NCBI GenBank assembly: GCA_020351875.1
Contig: CP070671.1
Span: forward strand, 3,198,834-3,262,833
Direction of reading: 5' to 3'
Length of the DNA stretch: 64,000 nucleotides
Source: Chromatiales bacterium
GTDB lineage: Bacteria; Pseudomonadota; Gammaproteobacteria; Steroidobacterales; GCA-2729495
Shown: positions 19,068 to 48,966 of the stretch, one piece after another
Layout of the letters: each line of letters begins with the position of its first letter
How positions within the stretch are numbered: the stretch's first letter is position 1
Notes under the pieces: model-generated
What the model was told of the DNA's origin: nothing
Databases searched by the model: none
Seen by the model: only the letters and a program-made list of their open reading frames with translations
Position numbers and translations under genes: made by a program

Positions 19068-19880
19068 GCTGCTGCCGGGCTGCTGTCAGCCTGCGGTGGC
19101 GGCGGTGATGGCCGGCGACTCGCCGCCCGCGCTCAATGCGTCAGGCGTATCGCTGACACTGGTGCGGAAAATCGATCCGCCCGTCGTCGAGGGTGAAGTC
19201 GTGCAGGCAACGGCCATCTGGCTCCGGAGCGCGAGCCAGGCCGTGGTCAGCTACAACATGGTGGGCGCACCGCGGCTGGGCGCCATCGACTACATCACCA
19301 GCATCAACCAGAAGAACCCGAAGCTGAGCTCGTCCATTGCATTCAGTGACTCGGACATCAGCGCGGTGTCTACGGACGGTGACTGGGTCTACGCCGCTGA
19401 GGCGACGAACGACCCCGCCTATCCCTTCCCGTCGGTGCTCGAACGCTCCCAGGTCCAGGGCAACAACCTCGTATTGCAGGACAACGCACGACTGGCACTG
19501 ACCAGTTTTGCCGCCACGAGCACGATGACGACGAACAACGCGGTCTATGCGACCTCGGGAACACCGGCGAAGTATTCGCGTTTGCATCGAACGACCTGAC
19601 TGCGCTGGGACTGGATCCGTCGGTGGTCGTCTCGAACGCGGTGACCGTCGACCGGGACCTGATGTTCATTTCCAACCGCGAGGCGGGCGTTTACGTGGCC
19701 CAGGCGGACGCCGACTTCGGCAGCACCGCTTGCAACGCACCGCAACAGATCACGATGCTCGGCCACCTGCAGTTCGACAACCTGCAATCGGCGAACCACG
19801 TCGCTTACAAGGGCGACTGCCTGTTCGTCGCGGCCGGTCTCGGCGGCGTGAAGATCGTGGAAGTGGAGAACCTGAACTAG
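19068..19880 (+). pseudogene. Decayed lipoprotein with LVIVD-type beta-propeller repeats
   Basis: Three pieces in two frames read as one protein. A lipobox-like LLSACGGGGDG lies in frame at 19080-19112, but no start codon precedes it before the SDR stop. The frame then shifts near 19112 to DSPPALNASGVSL, which runs to a stop at 19599. Near 19560 a one-base change shifts back to the first frame (GEVFAFASND then FISNREAGVYVA). The end carries CLFVAAGLGGVKIVEVE, an LVIVD repeat. The downstream fragment would start at 19623. Either the gene is dead or the assembly has two single-base errors plus a missing start. Confidence 0.6.
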
Positions 19881-19910
19881 AAAGACGGACGGGGCCTTGT
19901 CGGACCGGCA

Positions 19911-20333
19911 TCATTCGTCCCGCAGCGGTGGGAGCTCTTCGCCTTCGATCACGAATTCCAGCGCCAGACCGTTGTTGCAGTAGCGCAGGCCGGTCGGCTG
20001 TGGGCCGTCGTTGAACACGTGCCCGTGGTGGCCGCCGCAACGCCCGCAGTGGTACTCGGTGCGCGGCAGGATCAGCTTGAAGTCGCGCTTGGTGGCGATG
20101 TTGTCGTCATCGATGGGCTGAAAAAAGCTCGGCCAGCCGGTGCCACTGTCGAACTTGCCGGTACTCGCGAACAGCGGCAGCTTGCACGCGGCGCAGATAA
20201 ACGTGCCGGCGCGCTTCTCGTCGTTCAAGGGGCTGGTCCACGCGCGTTCGGTGTCTTCCTCGAACAGGATCGCATACCGCGCAGGTTCCAGCTCTGCCTG
20301 CCAGTCGGTCTTGTTTTTCTTCAGCTTGTCCAT
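19911..20333 (-). CDS. msrB: Peptide-methionine (R)-S-oxide reductase
   Basis: 140 residues from ATG 20333, preceded by GGTGAGGATGACTGG and ten bases after the upstream stop; an alternative ATG at 20363 would overlap that gene by 20 bases. Zinc-site pairs CAAC and CGRC are present, along with GKFDSGTGWPSF, GGHHGHVF and RYCNNG, which holds the catalytic Cys. It reduces the R form of methionine sulfoxide in proteins with thioredoxin. No export signal is present. Confidence 0.92.
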   Translation of the reverse strand: MDKLKKNKTDWQAELEPARYAILFEEDTERAWTSPLNDEKRAGTFICAACKLPLFASTGKFDSGTGWPSFFQPIDDDNIATKRDFKLILPRTEYHCGRCGGHHGHVFNDGPQPTGLRYCNNGLALEFVIEGEELPPLRDE

Positions 20334-20343
20334 CCAGTCATCC

Positions 20344-21075
20344 TCACCCAGCGTATGCGTCATCCACCGCCGCCCGCGCGGCCGCTCTTGCCCCCTGCAT
20401 CAGTGGTGCGCCGTGGGCACTGACAATCGCGTCGAAGTCCAGGGCCAGCAGGCGCTCGAAGTCCGGTTGCAGCGAGCCGCCCTTCCGCGTCTGGAATTTT
20501 TTCCACAGCGGCCCGACCAGCAGGCGTTTGGAAAAGCCGAGACGCGGCATCAGCAAGCGTGCCGCCAGCGAGTGGCGCTCCCAGTTCGGGTAGTACTGCA
20601 GGCTGTCACAGGTCACCAGTATCCCCTTACCGCGCCGGATCAGCAAAGCGCACTCCGGGCGTTTGACCTCGCGGAACGCAAACAGTTGCGCGTCGGCAAA
20701 CGGCAGCGCACCGCCCTCCTGCAGCGCGTGATCCACGGGCGGCTCCGGATAATGGCGCGAATCGGCCTGGCACCAGAACGCCGCATCGAAACGCTGCTTC
20801 AAATACGCATCGTCACAGCCGTGCAAACAACCGAGCCGCACCAGGTGGCGCACGCGACCCAGCTCTGCCAGCGCCGCTTCACCCGTGTCGTCCAGGCGGA
20901 TCGGGTTCAGCAACGTGAGTTCATCGCCGCTGCGCACCACCACCATGTTGCGGCTGATACCCATGTACCAGTTCATGCGCATGGTGCCCGGCACCCACCA
21001 CACGTCGTTGCCCAGCGACTCGAGATGGCCGTGGGACTGGGCGGGAAGAAATTGTGTTGCGTCGGTGGTGGCCAT
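20344..21075 (-). CDS. Metallo-beta-lactamase-like protein lacking the metal motif
   Basis: 243 residues. The overall plan resembles MBL-fold hydrolases of the DUF4336-like type: an N-terminal NVWWVPG sheet, MVVVRSGDELTLLNPIRL, then VRHLVRLGCLHGCDD where HxHxDH would normally stand, and ILVTCDSLQYY and AIVSAHGAPL further on. Only a single His remains at the usual metal site, so hydrolase activity is doubtful. It lies ten bases upstream of msrB on the same strand and is divergent from a membrane protein gene. Function unknown. Confidence 0.68.
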   Translation of the reverse strand: MATTDATQFLPAQSHGHLESLGNDVWWVPGTMRMNWYMGISRNMVVVRSGDELTLLNPIRLDDTGEAALAELGRVRHLVRLGCLHGCDDAYLKQRFDAAFWCQADSRHYPEPPVDHALQEGGALPFADAQLFAFREVKRPECALLIRRGKGILVTCDSLQYYPNWERHSLAARLLMPRLGFSKRLLVGPLWKKFQTRKGGSLQPDFERLLALDFDAIVSAHGAPLMQGARAAARAAVDDAYAG

Positions 21076-21134
21076 CAGGAAGGGCTCCGCTGGTGCAGGT
21101 TAATCTTAAGCCAGGCCCCCGCGGAGCCACGCCG

Positions 21135-21719
21135 ATGTTCCTGACCCGACTGTCCAGCGGCCTCGACCGGATATCCAGCGGCTGGACGCTGCTGGCCGCC
21201 GTCGCGCTATACGGCTTTTTCCTGTCCACCGTGATGCCCGGGCAGGCCCGCGACAGCCGGGCCTACGCGGGCGACTGGGGTGGCCCCGACCAGCATTTCT
21301 TCTACACACCCGGCGAACTCTACGAGCACATTCCCGCCTGGCCGGCCGCCGGGCGCAGCGACTACATCCGGTTCCGGCTGGGCTGGGACATTGGCTGGGC
21401 GTTCATCTACACCGCGTTCCTGGTCATCGCGACGAGCCTGAGCCTGCGCCGCGCGTACCCGGCCGCGCACCCACGACGACTGCTGAACCTGCCGGCGCTG
21501 ATACCGGGTCTGCTCGACCTGGCTGAGAATGCCGTCGGTATCGTGCTGGTGGCCAATGCGGACACGCGGCTGGATGCACTGGCCTGGTTCGCGACGAGCC
21601 TGACCAGCGCGAAGTGGACCACGCTGGCGATGGCGCACCTGGTGCTGCTATACGCGGCCGGCGCCGCGTTGCTCGCAACGATCAGGTCACGCCGAGCTGA
21701 CGCCGCCGATCAGCGGTAG
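21135..21719 (+). CDS. Four-helix membrane protein, unknown function
   Basis: 194 residues from ATG 21135, with GGAG ten bases upstream. Four hydrophobic segments are visible: about residues 17-36 (LLAAVALYGFFLSTVMP), 85-102 (IGWAFIYTAFLVIATSL), 116-135 (ALIPGLLDLAENAVGIV) and 160-182 (MAHLVLLYAAGAALLAT). A periplasmic loop of about 50 residues follows the first helix. No enzyme motif is recognised. The end overlaps the convergent methyltransferase gene by ten bases. Confidence 0.7.
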   Translation: MFLTRLSSGLDRISSGWTLLAAVALYGFFLSTVMPGQARDSRAYAGDWGGPDQHFFYTPGELYEHIPAWPAAGRSDYIRFRLGWDIGWAFIYTAFLVIATSLSLRRAYPAAHPRRLLNLPALIPGLLDLAENAVGIVLVANADTRLDALAWFATSLTSAKWTTLAMAHLVLLYAAGAALLATIRSRRADAADQR

Positions 21720-43641: not shown

Positions 43642-43823
43642 CCCGGACCGACACAGGCCGTCGAGATCGCCCGGCGCACCGCCAGGTGGGAGCAGGCATC
43701 CGTAATTTCCCTTACGCGACGGCCGTCTTGCTTGCGGACAAAAACTGCACCGGCTACCGTGCCAGCAGCCTTAATGCCAGGCGTTGCGGCTCTGTTAGCG
43801 GTGTTTGACCGGGGCGAACCCAC

Positions 43824-44486
43824 GTGAATTCCAGCCTGATACCGGCGCGTTTCCTACCTAAGGTCGCACTTGCCAGACTGCGCGTGACCTGCCTGGCAAT
43901 GCTGCTCGCCTTTGGCTGCGCGGGGCTCGCTGGTGCACAGGAGCCGGTTGCACCGGCCGCGGAAACGACGGTCGGCTTTGCGGGCTACCCCGACGCCCCG
44001 GCACTCAGCGTCGTGCCGCGCCAGGACGAAATGCGTTTCTTTCCGTGCGAGCAATGCCACAAGTTCCTGGAAACGGAATCGCAGGTACGCGAACTTTCTT
44101 CCCCCCACACCAACGAGCTGGATCATGGCGAGGGCCGGCTCTGGTGTCTGAATTGCCACGAGGGCGAGGATCGCGATTACCTGGTCACGCTACTCGGCGA
44201 ACGCATCGAATATAACGATTCGCATCTCGTCTGCGGCGGATGCCATGCGAACCGTCATCGTGACTGGTATTTTGGTGCCCACGGCAAGCGGGCGGATAAC
44301 TGGCAGGGGGAACGACGCGTATACAACTGTGCGCACTGCCACGACCCCCACGAACCGGCGCTGGAGCCGCGTGCGCCCGAGCCGATGCCGCCCGTGCGCA
44401 AGGGCCTGGCGCGCCCGGAAGGCGGTGCACATGCGCCCGGGTTCCCCTGGGAGACGCAAACCGACAGCACCGAGGAACAGCCATGA
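43824..44486 (+). CDS. Tetraheme periplasmic cytochrome c (CbcS-like)
   Basis: 220 residues from a GTG start. A signal peptide ends about residue 38 (CAGLAGA then QEP). Four heme motifs: CEQCH at 75, CLNCH at 108, CGGCH at 137 and CAHCH at 169; the Pro-rich tail has none. The stop overlaps the ferredoxin gene start by four bases, so the two are coupled. The order tetraheme cytochrome, ferredoxin, NrfD matches the CbcS-CbcT-CbcU menaquinol oxidoreductase described in Geobacter. It probably relays electrons between the membrane complex and other periplasmic cytochromes. Confidence 0.88.
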   Translation: MNSSLIPARFLPKVALARLRVTCLAMLLAFGCAGLAGAQEPVAPAAETTVGFAGYPDAPALSVVPRQDEMRFFPCEQCHKFLETESQVRELSSPHTNELDHGEGRLWCLNCHEGEDRDYLVTLLGERIEYNDSHLVCGGCHANRHRDWYFGAHGKRADNWQGERRVYNCAHCHDPHEPALEPRAPEPMPPVRKGLARPEGGAHAPGFPWETQTDSTEEQP

Positions 44487-45418
44487 GTGCCGGGAAGAAA
44501 GCGACAGGTGGCAATGACGTGAAGAGCCGCTCGGCACGACGGGCGTTCCTGAAGGGAATCGCGATGGCCGGCGCAGCGGCCGCCGCAACGCCCGCTTGGG
44601 GTGGCCGGACTTTCCAGGATGCGATGGGTGACTTTTTCCAGAAACATTACCTGCGCATGTCGCCGGACGAGGTCCAGGCGGCGATCGAACGGATCCAGCG
44701 GCGAGCCCAGGACCGTTTCGGAGTCGACATCAACGTGAAGAACACGCCGGCACAAGCGGGCGTGGTGTTCGGCTACGCGATCAACATCTCCAAGTGCAAG
44801 GGCTACCGGGACTGCGTGTCGGCCTGCGTAAAGGAAAACAACCTGGGCCGGGATTCCCAGGTGCAGTACATCCGGGTCCTGGAGATGGACCAGGGCACGA
44901 TGAACCTGGAAAACGGCGACCATTATTACGCCCCCGAAACCGTGCCCCAGGAAGGCAAGTTCTACCTGCCGGTGCAGTGCATGCAGTGCGACGACCCGCC
45001 TTGCGTTAAGGCCTGCCCGGTAAACGCCACGTGGATGGAGCCGGACGGCATCGTCGTGGTCGACTATGACTGGTGTATCGGCTGCCGCTACTGCATGACC
45101 GCCTGCCCATACTGGGCCAGGCATTTCAACTGGTCCGAGCCCGAGATTCCCGCCGAAGAAATCAATCTGGACACCCACTATCTCGGCAACCGACCGCGGC
45201 CGAAGGGCGTCGTGGAAAAATGCCATTTCTGCGTGCAGCGAACCCGCGAAGGTCGCCAGCCGGCCTGCATGGAAGCGTGTCCGACCGGGGCCCGGGTATT
45301 TGGCAACCTGCTCGATCCCGACAGCGAGATTCGCTATGTCCTTGAGAACAAGACCGTGTTCCGCCTGAAGGAAGACCTCGGGACCGAGCCGAAGTTCTGG
45401 TACTACACGGACGGCTGA
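44483..45418 (+). CDS. Four-cluster [4Fe-4S] ferredoxin with Tat signal (CbcT/DmsB-like)
   Basis: 311 residues. The twin-arginine signal ARRAFLKGIAMAGAAAAAT places the mature protein in the periplasm, as with HybA/NrfC. Four cysteine sets are visible: CKGYRDCVSAC near 112, CMQCDDPPCVKACP near 170, CIGCRYCMTACP near 205, and CHFC...CMEACP near 250. It should carry electrons between the NrfD-type membrane subunit and the tetraheme cytochrome. The gene starts inside the cytochrome stop (ATGA) and ends four bases before the NrfD gene. Confidence 0.9.
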   Translation: MSAGKKATGGNDVKSRSARRAFLKGIAMAGAAAAATPAWGGRTFQDAMGDFFQKHYLRMSPDEVQAAIERIQRRAQDRFGVDINVKNTPAQAGVVFGYAINISKCKGYRDCVSACVKENNLGRDSQVQYIRVLEMDQGTMNLENGDHYYAPETVPQEGKFYLPVQCMQCDDPPCVKACPVNATWMEPDGIVVVDYDWCIGCRYCMTACPYWARHFNWSEPEIPAEEINLDTHYLGNRPRPKGVVEKCHFCVQRTREGRQPACMEACPTGARVFGNLLDPDSEIRYVLENKTVFRLKEDLGTEPKFWYYTDG

Positions 45419-45422
45419 GGCG

Positions 45423-46661
45423 ATGGGCGCACTGATCGCTTTCGTGTTCGACGGGCTGCGAGCGATGTGCCGCGGACCCAGGCTGTACTGGTGGTGGCTC
45501 GGGTTGCTGCTGTTCCTGATCGCGCTCGGCGCCTGGAGCTACCTCACCCAGCTGCAGGAAGGACTCGTCGTGACGGGCATGAGCGACCAGGTGTCCTGGG
45601 GCCTGTATATCGCGAATTTCGCCTTCCTGGTCGGCATCGCTGCCGCGGCGGTACTGCTCGTGATCCCGGCGTACATTTTCCATCGCGAAGACGTGAAGGA
45701 CGTCGTGCTGGTGGGCGAAGGCATGGCCGTTGCTGCGGTCGTGATGGCGATCACCTTCGTCGTCATCGACCTCGGCCGCCCGGAACGCCTCTGGCACATG
45801 ATTCCCTACCTCGGCGAGTTCAACTGGCCGATGTCGCTGCTGGCCTGGGATGTGATTGTGCTCAGCGGCTACCTGCTGCTGAATCTCGCGATTCCTTTCT
45901 ACGTGCTGTTCCATCGCTACCGCGGACGCGAACCGCATTTCGGCCTGTATTTCACGATGGTGGTCATCGCGATGTTCTGGGCGATATCGATCCACACGGT
46001 GACCGCGTTCCTGTTCTCGGCGAATGCTTCGCGCCCGTTCTGGCACACGGCGCTGCTGGGACCGCGATTTATCGCGTCGGCCTTCGCCTCTGGTCCGGCG
46101 CTGATCATCATCATCCTGCAAATCGTCCGCGCGGTGACGAGCTACCCGGTCAAGCAGACGGTAATCGACCTGCTGGCACTGATCATGGCAGTCGCGCTGC
46201 AGATCAACCTGTTTTTCGTCGGCGTCGAACTGTTCACCGACTTCTACAACGAGGGTGCGCATGCGGCGTCGATCCACTACCTGTTCCTCGGTCTCGGGGA
46301 GTCGCATTCACTGCGACCGTGGATCTGGACCGCGCTGGGCATGAACATCATCGCGGTGATCATCCTGTCGGTGCACCCGCTGCGCAAACAGATACGGCTT
46401 CTGAACCTGGCCTGCGTGCTGGCCTTCATCGGCATCTGGATCGAGAAGGGGATGGGGCTGGTCATCCCCGGCTTCGTGCCGACACCGCTGGGAGAAGTCT
46501 TTGAATATCAGCCGACCCTGATCGAAATTACCGTGTCGATTGCGATCTGGGCCTTTGGTGCCCTGGTATTCACGCTGCTCGCGAAGGCCGTGATCGCGAT
46601 CGAGATGGGCCACCTGCGCCACAGTTCAGGCACAGCCGTGCCCGGAGAGATGATCAGCTAG
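45423..46661 (+). CDS. NrfD/PsrC-type quinol-interacting membrane protein (CbcU-like)
   Basis: 412 residues with about ten membrane segments (WWLGLLLFLIALGAWSYL, AAVLLVIPAYIF, and so on). Family signs include VVIDLGRPERLWHMIPY near residue 117 and NWPMSLLAWDVIVLSGY near 140. Such subunits take electrons from menaquinol or ubiquinol and may pump or translocate protons. Here no molybdopterin subunit is present, so the module is more like Cbc4, Hmc or Qrc-type redox complexes than polysulfide or DMSO reductase. The last four bases overlap the convergent cytochrome gene. Confidence 0.9.
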   Translation: MGALIAFVFDGLRAMCRGPRLYWWWLGLLLFLIALGAWSYLTQLQEGLVVTGMSDQVSWGLYIANFAFLVGIAAAAVLLVIPAYIFHREDVKDVVLVGEGMAVAAVVMAITFVVIDLGRPERLWHMIPYLGEFNWPMSLLAWDVIVLSGYLLLNLAIPFYVLFHRYRGREPHFGLYFTMVVIAMFWAISIHTVTAFLFSANASRPFWHTALLGPRFIASAFASGPALIIIILQIVRAVTSYPVKQTVIDLLALIMAVALQINLFFVGVELFTDFYNEGAHAASIHYLFLGLGESHSLRPWIWTALGMNIIAVIILSVHPLRKQIRLLNLACVLAFIGIWIEKGMGLVIPGFVPTPLGEVFEYQPTLIEITVSIAIWAFGALVFTLLAKAVIAIEMGHLRHSSGTAVPGEMIS

Positions 46662-47476
46662 TCGCCCGCAGCCGCGGCGTCCCGCTCGGCCTGCAGTTGC
46701 TCCCAGGCCTTGTCGAAATAAGCGCGGAGTTCAGTCAGCAGCTGGACGGATTCGTCACTCGACCTGGGCAGGTCGAAGCGGTGAATGCCGTCGACGCTGC
46801 GGTCGTACGCTGACTGAAAGCCGTCGAGAGTGCGCTTGCTGTCGCCGGGCCAACCCAGTGTCTCGTAATGTAGACGACTCCAGCCCAGGTAGGCCTTGGC
46901 CATGCCGAGTCGATGCAAGATTTCCCGGGCGCTGGCCACAGCGCCCGGCTTCGCCTGCTCCGTGCCTTCCGCATGGCAGACTTCGCAAGCACCGGCGACG
47001 ATATCGCGCGAGTACGGCCGGCGGCTCATGGAACTGTGACACGTCGTGCAGGTGGGCGCGTTTTCCGTACCCATTAGTGCTTCGAAGTGCCGGCTGTTGA
47101 CGAACTGTTCCGCGTTCGCGCGGTGACAGGCCCCGCAGGTGTCCGGCTGGCGCCGGTAGAACAGCGGGCTGGCGGCACTCGTCGGCGTGATCACCCCGGC
47201 GTGGGCCTCGCGGGCATCGCTGGCATCGGGTTGCCCACCGTGGCATTGGCTGCAGGTGACGCCCGCCACCTTGTGCGGCGAACCCAGCCAGTCCTGGTAA
47301 TACTCATTGATGTGCGGCGCCTGCACAAAAAACTGCGGATTCCCGTGGCAGTCCTCGCAACCGTCGGCGCGGGTGACGGTGGACCATGTCAATGCTGCGC
47401 CTGACAGCAGAACGGCGCTGATCGCAAGACCTGTGCCGCGCCCTCTCAACACGCTGCGGGGGGCTCTGAACTTCAT
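46658..47476 (-). CDS. Pentaheme periplasmic cytochrome c
   Basis: 272 residues from ATG 47476, whose first base is the last base of the upstream stop (TGATG), so translation is coupled. A signal peptide ends about residue 36. Five heme motifs: CEDCH at 40, CSQCH near 71, CGACH near 113, CTTCH near 142 and CEVCH near 163. The rest of the protein (residues 175-272) is helical with no heme. It probably receives electrons from the larger cytochrome encoded just upstream. Confidence 0.88.
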   Translation of the reverse strand: MKFRAPRSVLRGRGTGLAISAVLLSGAALTWSTVTRADGCEDCHGNPQFFVQAPHINEYYQDWLGSPHKVAGVTCSQCHGGQPDASDAREAHAGVITPTSAASPLFYRRQPDTCGACHRANAEQFVNSRHFEALMGTENAPTCTTCHSSMSRRPYSRDIVAGACEVCHAEGTEQAKPGAVASAREILHRLGMAKAYLGWSRLHYETLGWPGDSKRTLDGFQSAYDRSVDGIHRFDLPRSSDESVQLLTELRAYFDKAWEQLQAERDAAAAGD

Positions 47477-48849
47477 CACTCGGCCGCGGCCTGGCGCCCG
47501 GCTCGCAGGGCGTCCCAGCCCAGATATTGCCAATCGCCATCGTGGCAACCGGAATTGGCGCAGAAGGTCTTGTCGTCCTTACCGAACTGGATCACCTCAC
47601 CGTGACAGAAGGCGCAGCTCTGGTTCACCTGGGTCATGTGGTTGGCCATGAAATCCGGCGCCGCATGGTTGCCCGGCTTGCGGCGGTCCACCAGGTCCAG
47701 GTAGCTGTCCGGAATCTGATCGTTGCGGGTCACCAGCGGAATGGCGTGACAGTTCGTACAGTTCACGGGTACCGGCTCGCCTGCTTCGTTCTGCAGCTCG
47801 CCGTTGTGGCAGCGGAAACACCCGGGCGAGTACTTGTGGCCATTGTGGTCCGGGAAAGACCGCCAAGATACGTCCTCCGCACCGAGGAACTGTGTGCTCT
47901 TGACCAGTTCAACCGCAAAGTCTTCCCGGCGCTGCTGGGCGTCTACTGCTTCCTGCCAGGCTTCGGGCTGCGTCTTCTCCAGGTCGGCAAAATCGGCCTG
48001 GTAGTCTGCCCAGGCCTCATGCACCGCCGCGCGTATTTCCTCTTCAGTATCGAAGGGTGTGGTCACGAGTTTCATCACCCGGGCCTTTACGTACGGCAGG
48101 TCCGGGTTCAGATCACCACGCGCTATCGCTTCGTCGACCAACAACTCGGGATCGCGGAAATAGTGACCGGCGCGATTGTGACAATCGATGCAATCCATCA
48201 CCTCCTTGGCAGCTTCGTCCCTGTCCGCTTCGCTCAGAGGCGAGCCGACATGCTCGTAGACAACTTTGGAGCCATCCCGTCGCGTCGCCTCTACCCATTT
48301 GACATCGAGCCGTTGTGGATCCGTCGCGACGAAGCGCACCGCGCCACTCGCGTGCCAGTTGACGTCCCTGGGCGGCTCCCGGCCGAAGTTCCGGCCCACG
48401 GTACGCACGGCCAGCGTCAGCTTGCTTTCCGTGTTGTTCTCATCCGGCGCGAAACGCCGGTTGACGCGCACCGTGTTGGCCCGATGGGTCGTTAAGGTAT
48501 GACAGCCTTCGCAGGCAACGCTGGCAGCCGGCATGGAAGGCGAGATCACCGGGCGTTCGTAACCGACCAGCATGTCCCACGCATGCGTGATGTGACCGGA
48601 TTTCTTGACCACCGCCGGAAAGAAGGACATCCGGCCGATGTGACACTCCACGCAACTGACCTGCGCGTGAAAGGACTGCTGATGGGAGAACGAATTCTCC
48701 GGATGGACAGCATGACACGCATCGGCACAGAACGCGTCGCTGTTCGTGTACTCCCAGGTAGCGATCCCGGCTGACGCGAGCAGCAAGAGCACCGGGACGG
48801 CCACCACCAAGCCAATCAGAACGTTCCGTAAGGTCAGATGTAATGTCAC
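47476..48849 (-). CDS. Membrane-anchored multiheme cytochrome c (NapC/NirT-like N-terminus)
   Basis: 457 residues from a GTG start. A single membrane anchor (VLIGLVVAVPVLLLLASAG) is followed by a NapC/NirT-like heme domain. Six canonical motifs: CVECH near 66, CEGCH near 113, CIDCH near 217, CFRCH near 351, CTNCH near 371 and CAFCH near 418. Two atypical ones, CADACH at 41 (CX3CH) and CANSGCH near 434 (CX4CH), could raise the count to eight. It likely takes electrons from quinol and passes them to the pentaheme protein. Confidence 0.88.
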   Translation of the reverse strand: MTLHLTLRNVLIGLVVAVPVLLLLASAGIATWEYTNSDAFCADACHAVHPENSFSHQQSFHAQVSCVECHIGRMSFFPAVVKKSGHITHAWDMLVGYERPVISPSMPAASVACEGCHTLTTHRANTVRVNRRFAPDENNTESKLTLAVRTVGRNFGREPPRDVNWHASGAVRFVATDPQRLDVKWVEATRRDGSKVVYEHVGSPLSEADRDEAAKEVMDCIDCHNRAGHYFRDPELLVDEAIARGDLNPDLPYVKARVMKLVTTPFDTEEEIRAAVHEAWADYQADFADLEKTQPEAWQEAVDAQQRREDFAVELVKSTQFLGAEDVSWRSFPDHNGHKYSPGCFRCHNGELQNEAGEPVPVNCTNCHAIPLVTRNDQIPDSYLDLVDRRKPGNHAAPDFMANHMTQVNQSCAFCHGEVIQFGKDDKTFCANSGCHDGDWQYLGWDALRAGRQAAAE

Positions 48850-48966
48850 GGGTTAACCGGGCTACAGGCAGACAAACAGATTGTGAAAGACTATAGCCAA
48901 ACGCCGTGGCACGCGCTAGCAATCGCCATGTTGGTCATCGACGGCGAGAGACCGGCGCGCAAACCT

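Follow-up and report, generated by a model that had tools for sequence, protein, structure and literature searches.

It is a recurring question from which inner-membrane protein an outer-membrane conduit receives its electrons, and it is raised here by a five-gene redox island in a Chromatiales bacterium (assembly GCA_020351875.1, contig CP070671.1). The island lies at positions 43824-48849 of the window, by which we mean the whole stretch of 64,000 nucleotides that was analysed (contig positions 3,198,834 to 3,262,833, forward strand). The genome, a single contig of 3.49 Mb that is 95.6% complete, also encodes the conduit MtrCAB. We favour, with a probability of roughly 0.6, a model in which the island, acquired horizontally, encodes an inner-membrane unit that moves electrons from quinol to the periplasm and forms the entrance to MtrCAB, taking the role of a CymA-type tetraheme cytochrome. 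A sequence-only reading of the window had proposed an electron exit from quinol to the periplasm, and this is the best-supported interpretation, although we infer both the outward direction of flow and the contact with the partner proteins. In what follows, G labels denote genomes (G000 is the genome of the island) and L labels denote genomic stretches.

The sequence-only reading placed five redox genes in the island, and ORF coordinates and motifs confirm each of them in its place and on its strand. On the plus strand, cytA (43824-44486) codes for a tetraheme c-type cytochrome with four CXXCH motifs in a CbcS-like position, Fd (44483-45418) for a CbcT/DsrO-like multi-cluster iron-sulfur protein with 4Fe-4S dicluster domains, and NrfD (45423-46661) for an NrfD/DsrP-type membrane subunit in a CbcU-like position (PF03916, 166.9 bits). 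On the minus strand, cytB (46658-47479) codes for a pentaheme c-type cytochrome with five CXXCH motifs, and cytC (47476-48849) for a membrane-anchored cytochrome of 457 amino acids with up to eight hemes and an ImcH-like architecture. The end of cytA and the start of Fd share 4 bp, the ATG start of cytB at 47479 overlaps the cytC stop by 4 bp, and the tail-to-tail meeting of the two groups is exact, with the NrfD and cytB stops overlapping by 4 bp.

The island is a clean insertion relative to four members of the same genus. The inserted segment (43642-48966) comprises everything between a SnoaL-like and a DUF6491-like gene. Of the neighbouring genes, four were scanned: one is SnoaL-like, one luciferase-like, one weakly DUF6491-like (19.2 bits, below the cut-off) and one AhpC/TSA. 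In all four examined congeners the left flank still has the luciferase-like gene, and the right flank the DUF6491-like gene with further genes. The SnoaL-like and DUF6491-like genes are about 130-140 bp apart in G274, G275 and G276, and in G277, where a SnoaL-like match was not found, the luciferase-like gene adjoins the DUF6491-like gene. The five island proteins have no tblastn match in the matching stretches of these four congeners, and NrfD and cytC were not found in their whole genomes at the thresholds used. When 396 genomes of the order were searched, no further genome of the family labelled f1 had a cytC match. Four f1 genomes have an NrfD match, but this is a 45-46% identical DsrP-like version in a different operon. 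The GC content of the island (62.5%, compared with 65.0 and 66.2% in its flanks) carries little weight on its own.

A genome-wide search for porin-cytochrome genes, which had been proposed from the sequence alone, was positive. Consecutive mtrCAB genes are located at G000:C1:943938-949202, and their products score above the NCBIfam cut-offs for MtrC (531.7 versus 209.3 bits), MtrA (299.4 versus 192.2) and MtrB (465.9 versus 240.05). Thus, MtrCAB is the likely outlet for electrons from the island. The congener G274 has a matching mtrCAB locus with 62-75% identity and the same neighbours, and carries between two of these neighbours an extra tetraheme NapC/CymA-type gene (PF03264, 202.2 bits over 12-173). 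The corresponding place in G000 is a 149-bp gap, and its 14-kb mtrCAB stretch gave no credible NapC match, since the best tblastn hit (E 0.003) lies inside MtrA. Because mtrCAB has a NapC-type neighbour in a second congener as well (G276; PF03264, 191 bits over 12-173; 59% identical to that of G274), loss of CymA in G000 is the simpler reading, with a polarity that three genomes do not prove. In three further f1 genomes (G282, and G463 and G438 on short contigs), no NapC was found next to the complete or fragmentary mtrCAB, so that CymA is not a constant feature of f1.

Genome-wide, cytC is the sole match to PF03264 and cytB is the sole match to a CbcL-like query. This leaves the island as the sole candidate link between the quinone pool and MtrCAB within the families searched, which did not include bc1 or alternative complex III. 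The island likely does the same job as CymA, for which two congeners carry a CymA-type gene beside mtrCAB, whereas G000 is without CymA apart from the NapC/NirT-like first part of cytC. One member of the genus thus seems to have exchanged CymA for a five-gene Cbc4/ImcH-like set while retaining the conduit, and a swap within one genus can be tested between close relatives.

The proposed route begins with NrfD, which by its family would oxidise quinol in the membrane. Electrons would then pass through Fd to the tetraheme cytA, as the CbcSTU and DsrJOP pattern suggests, and cytC would probably provide a second quinol-oxidising entry, judging from its ImcH architecture. The pentaheme cytB might relay electrons to MtrA, from where MtrCAB would deliver them to an outside acceptor, as is known for the family. 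A bolder version, which we regard as rather unlikely, is that the five proteins are all assembled into a single inner-membrane complex, in which about 17 hemes link two quinol-oxidising sites, one NrfD-type and one ImcH/NapC-type. If this were true, a cell could pick between two membrane energetics feeding MtrCAB, and the island would amount to a portable Geobacter-style entrance mounted on a Shewanella-style exit.

Relatives within the order support a connection with MtrCAB. Among the 396 genomes, with G000 included in each count, cytC homologues occur in 59, MtrB in 104, and a close NrfD clade (at least 63% identity) in nine. MtrB is found in 48 of the 59 genomes with cytC (Fisher p 2e-22) and in seven of the nine with close NrfD (p 0.0016), with p values uncorrected for shared descent. 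The nine are what remains of 13 matches after removal of four rows at 45-46% identity (G292, G294, G282 and G289), only one of which has MtrB. We found 61 places with cytC and annotated 20 stretches. A CbcL-like fusion, with 10-19 hemes and a membrane domain, is located next to or near cytC in 17 of these, and seven carry an MtrC-, MtrA- or MtrB-like gene. The three stretches without a CbcL-like gene are L053, whose contig ends near the gene, L051 and L052, and two stretches outside the 20 (L013 and L014) have CbcL-like neighbours too. The convergent cytA-Fd-NrfD/cytB block is present with cytC-family and CbcL-like genes in four genomes (G524, G359, G453 and G502), whose block regions all hold mtr-like genes (L062; L067/L116; L089-L090; L091-L092), those of G359 being seen in L116. 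The block is split over two contigs in G365 and is cut off in G643. In three stretches, another set of multiheme, iron-sulfur and membrane-protein genes is located near the CbcL-like/cytC pair (L061:11850-14565, L065:3449-6052 and L069:15579-18077). The Fd proteins of these sets are 34-35% identical and NrfD is confirmed by Pfam in L061 only, and they suggest that exchange of such modules in the order may not be limited to one kind.

A wider scan via NrfD yielded 56 loci, some of them from genomes of the order, which with the window make 57. The genes cytA, Fd and NrfD follow one another in this order in 51 of the 57, and the exceptions are four loci cut by a contig end (L118, L122, L139 and L159), one partial NrfD (L160) and one distant match (L168). 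Thus, the layout of the trio is conserved and not accidental. In 15 loci, a full cytB gene is located no more than about 1.5 kb from the trio or from as much of it as is visible. It is convergent in nine, namely the window and eight gammaproteobacterial loci (six from genomes of the order), and six of these eight relatives have a stop overlap of 4 to 17 bp between NrfD and cytB as well, with none in L118 and L125. In loci from Acidobacteriota, Myxococcota and Elusimicrobiota, cytB is on the strand of the trio; same-strand copies are downstream in L138, L144, L148 and L169 and upstream in L157 and L158, and cytB of L147 is 7 kb from the trio. The cytC gene is present in 12 of the 57 stretches, and L148 carries the trio, cytB, cytC and CbcL-like genes all on one strand. 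Such changes of strand among retained neighbours offer the strongest argument for regarding the two convergent groups as one functional unit. More generally, a convergent layout that is kept while other phyla use one strand indicates that the strand need not bound a functional unit.

In the NrfD tree, the window groups with a Woeseiaceae-type clade, although the support (90/73) is not strong. In the cytC tree it belongs to a four-row clade with L166, L051 and L052 (98/98), and L166 has the same pairing, in which a window-type cytC and a diheme cytochrome are followed by cytA, Fd and NrfD. The positions of the trio and of cytC in these trees differ, so their histories may differ as well, although the pairing in L166 counts the other way.

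Several observations weigh against the entrance model. A distance of 2.3 Mb separates the island from mtrCAB on the contig (about 1.2 Mb for a circular contig), so the two are not linked by an operon. The window-type cytC clade is separate from the cytC proteins of mtrCAB-bearing relatives, and its closest members in the order (L051 and L052) are without heme neighbours; one of the genomes concerned, G380, has no MtrB match. G356 has the block with MtrB and MtrC and no cytC match, and G412 has the trio without cytB and no MtrB match. A 13-row subclade of the trio, including Rubrivivax, Halieaceae, Burkholderiales and others, has no cytB, cytC or MtrCAB in its stretches, which indicates that the trio has other uses. 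Conversely, G282 of family f1 carries MtrCAB with no NapC beside it and with an NrfD that is only DsrP-like, so MtrCAB may work with other inputs, and bc1 is described in part of one source as partly replacing CymA in Shewanella (PMC4954811). Predicted structures add nothing in favour and were not used: the best PDB match of cytB (pLDDT 79.9) is the multiheme nitrite reductase 2ot4 at a non-significant E of 0.28, and cytC (pLDDT 65.4) has no meaningful fold match.

The individual proteins bear on which known system the island most resembles. The cytA protein exceeds the Cytochrome_C7 cut-off narrowly (25.1 versus 24.8 bits), and 48 of 51 scanned cytA regions, the window counted, have four CXXCH motifs. 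Fd matches Fer4_11 (72.8 bits) and falls just short of the NCBIfam DsrO cut-off (196.3 versus 200), and its N-terminus carries RRAFL, which we take to be a twin-arginine motif. The sequence-only reading described it as a four-cluster ferredoxin. Its dicluster domains agree with this, but the total of 15 cysteines does not provide four full sites, so that Fd probably holds three clusters with four cysteines and one with three. The position of the missing cysteine is occupied by cysteine in L062, L153, L015 and L016 and by tyrosine or valine in other relatives. NrfD has 10 hydrophobic segments by hydropathy, scores 402.2 bits with the NCBIfam DsrP profile (cut-off 350) and only 24.8 with the nitrite-reductase NrfD profile, and its solved relatives are the subunit C chains 6f0k_C and 6btm_C of alternative complex III.

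An alignment of 15 cytB sequences has 30 invariant columns. The cytC protein consists of one N-terminal hydrophobic helix, a CX3CH motif, six CXXCH motifs and a CX4CH motif. It is above the PF03264 (NapC/NirT) cut-off (26.1 versus 24.1 bits) over profile positions 11-96 of 174 only, below that of NCBIfam NrfH (37.6 versus 134.2), and matches the solved NrfH quinol dehydrogenase 2j7a_C at 6.7e-6. No match to cytC was found among plasmids. NapC/NirT tetrahemes are described in passages of a 2018 survey as proteins of 187-364 amino acids with four or five hemes (PMC6295460), and we rejected cytC as a member of this CymA-containing group given its partial match, its 457 amino acids and its up to eight hemes. 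The earlier count of up to 17 hemes for the island corresponds to 15 CXXCH, one CX3CH and one CX4CH motif, so that eight hemes in cytC and 17 in all are plausible and not proven.

The same passages define ImcH by a CX3CH motif right after an N-terminal membrane segment and five to nine CXXCH motifs, usually with three N-terminal transmembrane segments and with one in two published exceptions (PMC6295460). The cytC family resembles this published description of the Geobacter protein, with which its architecture was compared, in its N-terminal helix or helices, membrane-side CX3CH and NapC/NirT-like start. In all 24 aligned sequences, the window counted, CX3CH directly follows the membrane segment and is accompanied by five or six CXXCH motifs, and 19 of the 24 have three N-terminal segments by hydropathy. 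The remaining five, which are the window and the four sequences closest to it, differ in having one helix instead of three and are also the only ones to keep the extra C-terminal CX4CH. Another difference from ImcH is genomic, in that several cytC relatives adjoin mtr genes, unlike imcH in the survey, passages of which report no adjoining mtrAB (PMC6295460). ImcH-like and CbcL-like genes are located near MtrC-, MtrA- or MtrB-like genes in L055, L058, L062, L063, L066, L069, L070 and L014. This arrangement beside mtr genes thus occurs in an order that includes genomes of Woeseiaceae, a family described in part of another source as plentiful in marine sediment (PMC12175321).

Other functions for the island must be weighed against the entrance model. 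The route could run in reverse, with the island acting as a cytochrome:quinone reductase and donors such as Fe(II) or minerals supplying the quinone pool through MtrCAB. We consider this improbable, because an OmcA/MtrC-family surface cytochrome is present, and such cytochromes are more typical of reducers. NrfD-type complexes do work both ways, since DMSO reductase oxidises quinol and Qrc reduces quinone according to part of one source (PMC8076601), but passages of the 2018 survey implicate ImcH-type proteins solely in quinol oxidation so far (PMC6295460). An about equally improbable alternative is that the island is a periplasmic hub independent of MtrCAB that feeds a soluble periplasmic reductase, a terminal oxidase or the product of a molybdoenzyme gene at another locus, the last being a split complex iron-sulfur molybdoenzyme. 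The occurrence of the trio without extracellular electron transfer genes in some lineages is consistent with a hub, whereas the relatives that couple the block to CbcL-like and mtr genes argue against it. The catalytic-heme motif CXXCK is present in none of the five island proteins, which also speaks against a hub and led us to reject a catalytic multiheme reductase within the island itself.

As for the split molybdoenzyme, the sequence-only reading was correct that the window has no molybdopterin enzyme, and no such subunit lies just outside the island genes. A search for terminal reductases revealed eight PF00384 matches, all elsewhere in the genome and none adjacent to the island. Two of these proteins (L176 and L177, 59% identical to each other) have twin-arginine starts and resemble type II DMSO reductases, scoring 880.7 and 831.8 bits under a cut-off of 984.75, and the gene of one of the two, with an iron-sulfur protein gene beside it, is located about 8.3 kb from mtrCAB (L183:11957-15681, G000:C1:931957-935681; its paralogue, ~1.96 Mb). 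Nevertheless, none of the eight proteins is near NapA (at most 127 bits versus 904-931), and with no adjacent molybdopterin subunit we do not favour this arrangement. Far less likely still is that the trio is a divergent DsrJOP of the sulfur-metabolism complex DsrMKJOP. The NrfD score over the DsrP cut-off and the Fd score near that of DsrO would fit such an origin. However, cytA has four CXXCH motifs, not three CXXCH and one CX3CH as in the cytochrome of the DsrP-like operons of family f1 (L015-L018), and in the NrfD tree a long stem (2.06) separates the two DsrP-like f1 rows from the clade of the window. In addition, DsrM and DsrK are absent among the four island neighbours scanned, the genes that were examined for dsr functions. 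On heme count, neighbours and tree position, membership in DsrMKJOP is not favoured.

Relative to described systems, the entrance model places the island among several variants. CbcU is taken to be an NrfD-type protein. Passages on the Geobacter system describe CbcSTU (Cbc4) as a four-heme c-type cytochrome, a periplasmic 4Fe-4S ferredoxin and an integral membrane protein, and label CbcU a b-type cytochrome (PMC10989804, PMC11434368). The match to CbcSTU noted on the sequence alone holds for the described composition, though not for this label. Unlike CbcSTU, the trio is accompanied by a pentaheme cytochrome and by one of ImcH-like type, and its genome bears MtrCAB. It shares with DsrMKJOP a DsrO/DsrP-like Fd/NrfD pair by profile, and differs in the separate clade of its NrfD and in its tetraheme cytA, whereas DsrJ is published as a triheme protein in part of one source (PMC8076601).

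A swapped entrance is not without precedent, so the general idea is already known and the present gene combination is a new variant. According to parts of the cited papers, NetBCD of Aeromonas is the inner-membrane quinol dehydrogenase of MtrCAB pathways (PMC11434368, PMC4954811, PMC8805035, PMC9012536), SirCD of Shewanella, with an NrfD/PsrC-type subunit, partially substitutes for CymA (PMC4954811, PMC11434368), the inner-membrane partners of MtrCAB vary among genera, and the entrances to conduits are non-homologous and easily replaced (PMC8805035, PMC9012536). The island resembles NetBCD and SirCD as a non-CymA quinol dehydrogenase candidate, and NetBCD also in its link with MtrCAB. However, its membrane subunit is DsrP-like and not like nitrite-reductase NrfD or TtrC, and further differences are its tetraheme subunit and its partner of ImcH-like type. 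Neither cytA nor cytB matches NetB (NF049875) at E 0.1. In the titles, abstract starts and selected passages of the open PMC literature, the five-gene set was not found. A pentaheme cytochrome gene beside mtrCAB in G282 was considered as NetB and rejected, with no NCBIfam match at 1e-10, and none of the five genes after it is iron-sulfur or NrfD by Pfam.

Other observations concern additional genes. In Rubrivivax gelatinosus DSM 1709, the trio is about 8.6 kb upstream of reaction-centre genes (L142:8491-21178, with two Photo_RC genes at 19784-21178), and since this stretch has no cytB or cytC, phototrophs may put the trio to a different use. The NrfD genes of Verrucomicrobiota (L161:10001-11599, L162:10001-11611, L163:10001-11611 and L164:2273-3949) seem to contain an in-frame insertion, as a single open frame of about 1.6 kb spans about 380-407 matched residues. 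A HemN-like gene of the radical-SAM coproporphyrinogen-oxidase family is located near mtrCAB in the three genomes of the genus found with mtrCAB, possibly for heme supply (L019:6494-7798, L097:15282-16595 and L099:10119-11498); the G274 copy matches NF006385 at 463.1 over a cut-off of 355, and the others were identified by BLAST (71% and 54%).

Three further cytochrome arrangements were encountered. A scan of G000 for heme motifs found 317 places; the account here extends to the first 100 of them, all on the plus strand and no further than 2.10 Mb, and does not amount to a full heme census. In the same genome, an 8-heme TPR cytochrome adjoins a protein that fuses MotA/TolQ/ExbB and TonB C-terminal domains (L020:5795-9284, G000:C1:973794-977283), and a 9-heme cytochrome carries a CarboxypepD_reg domain (L021:5161-7617, G000:C1:37160-39616). 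Finally, G134 (L013:12757-19899) has an ORF of at least 2381 amino acids, within which the stretch ends, after a cytC homologue and a cytochrome b-type fusion with nine hemes.

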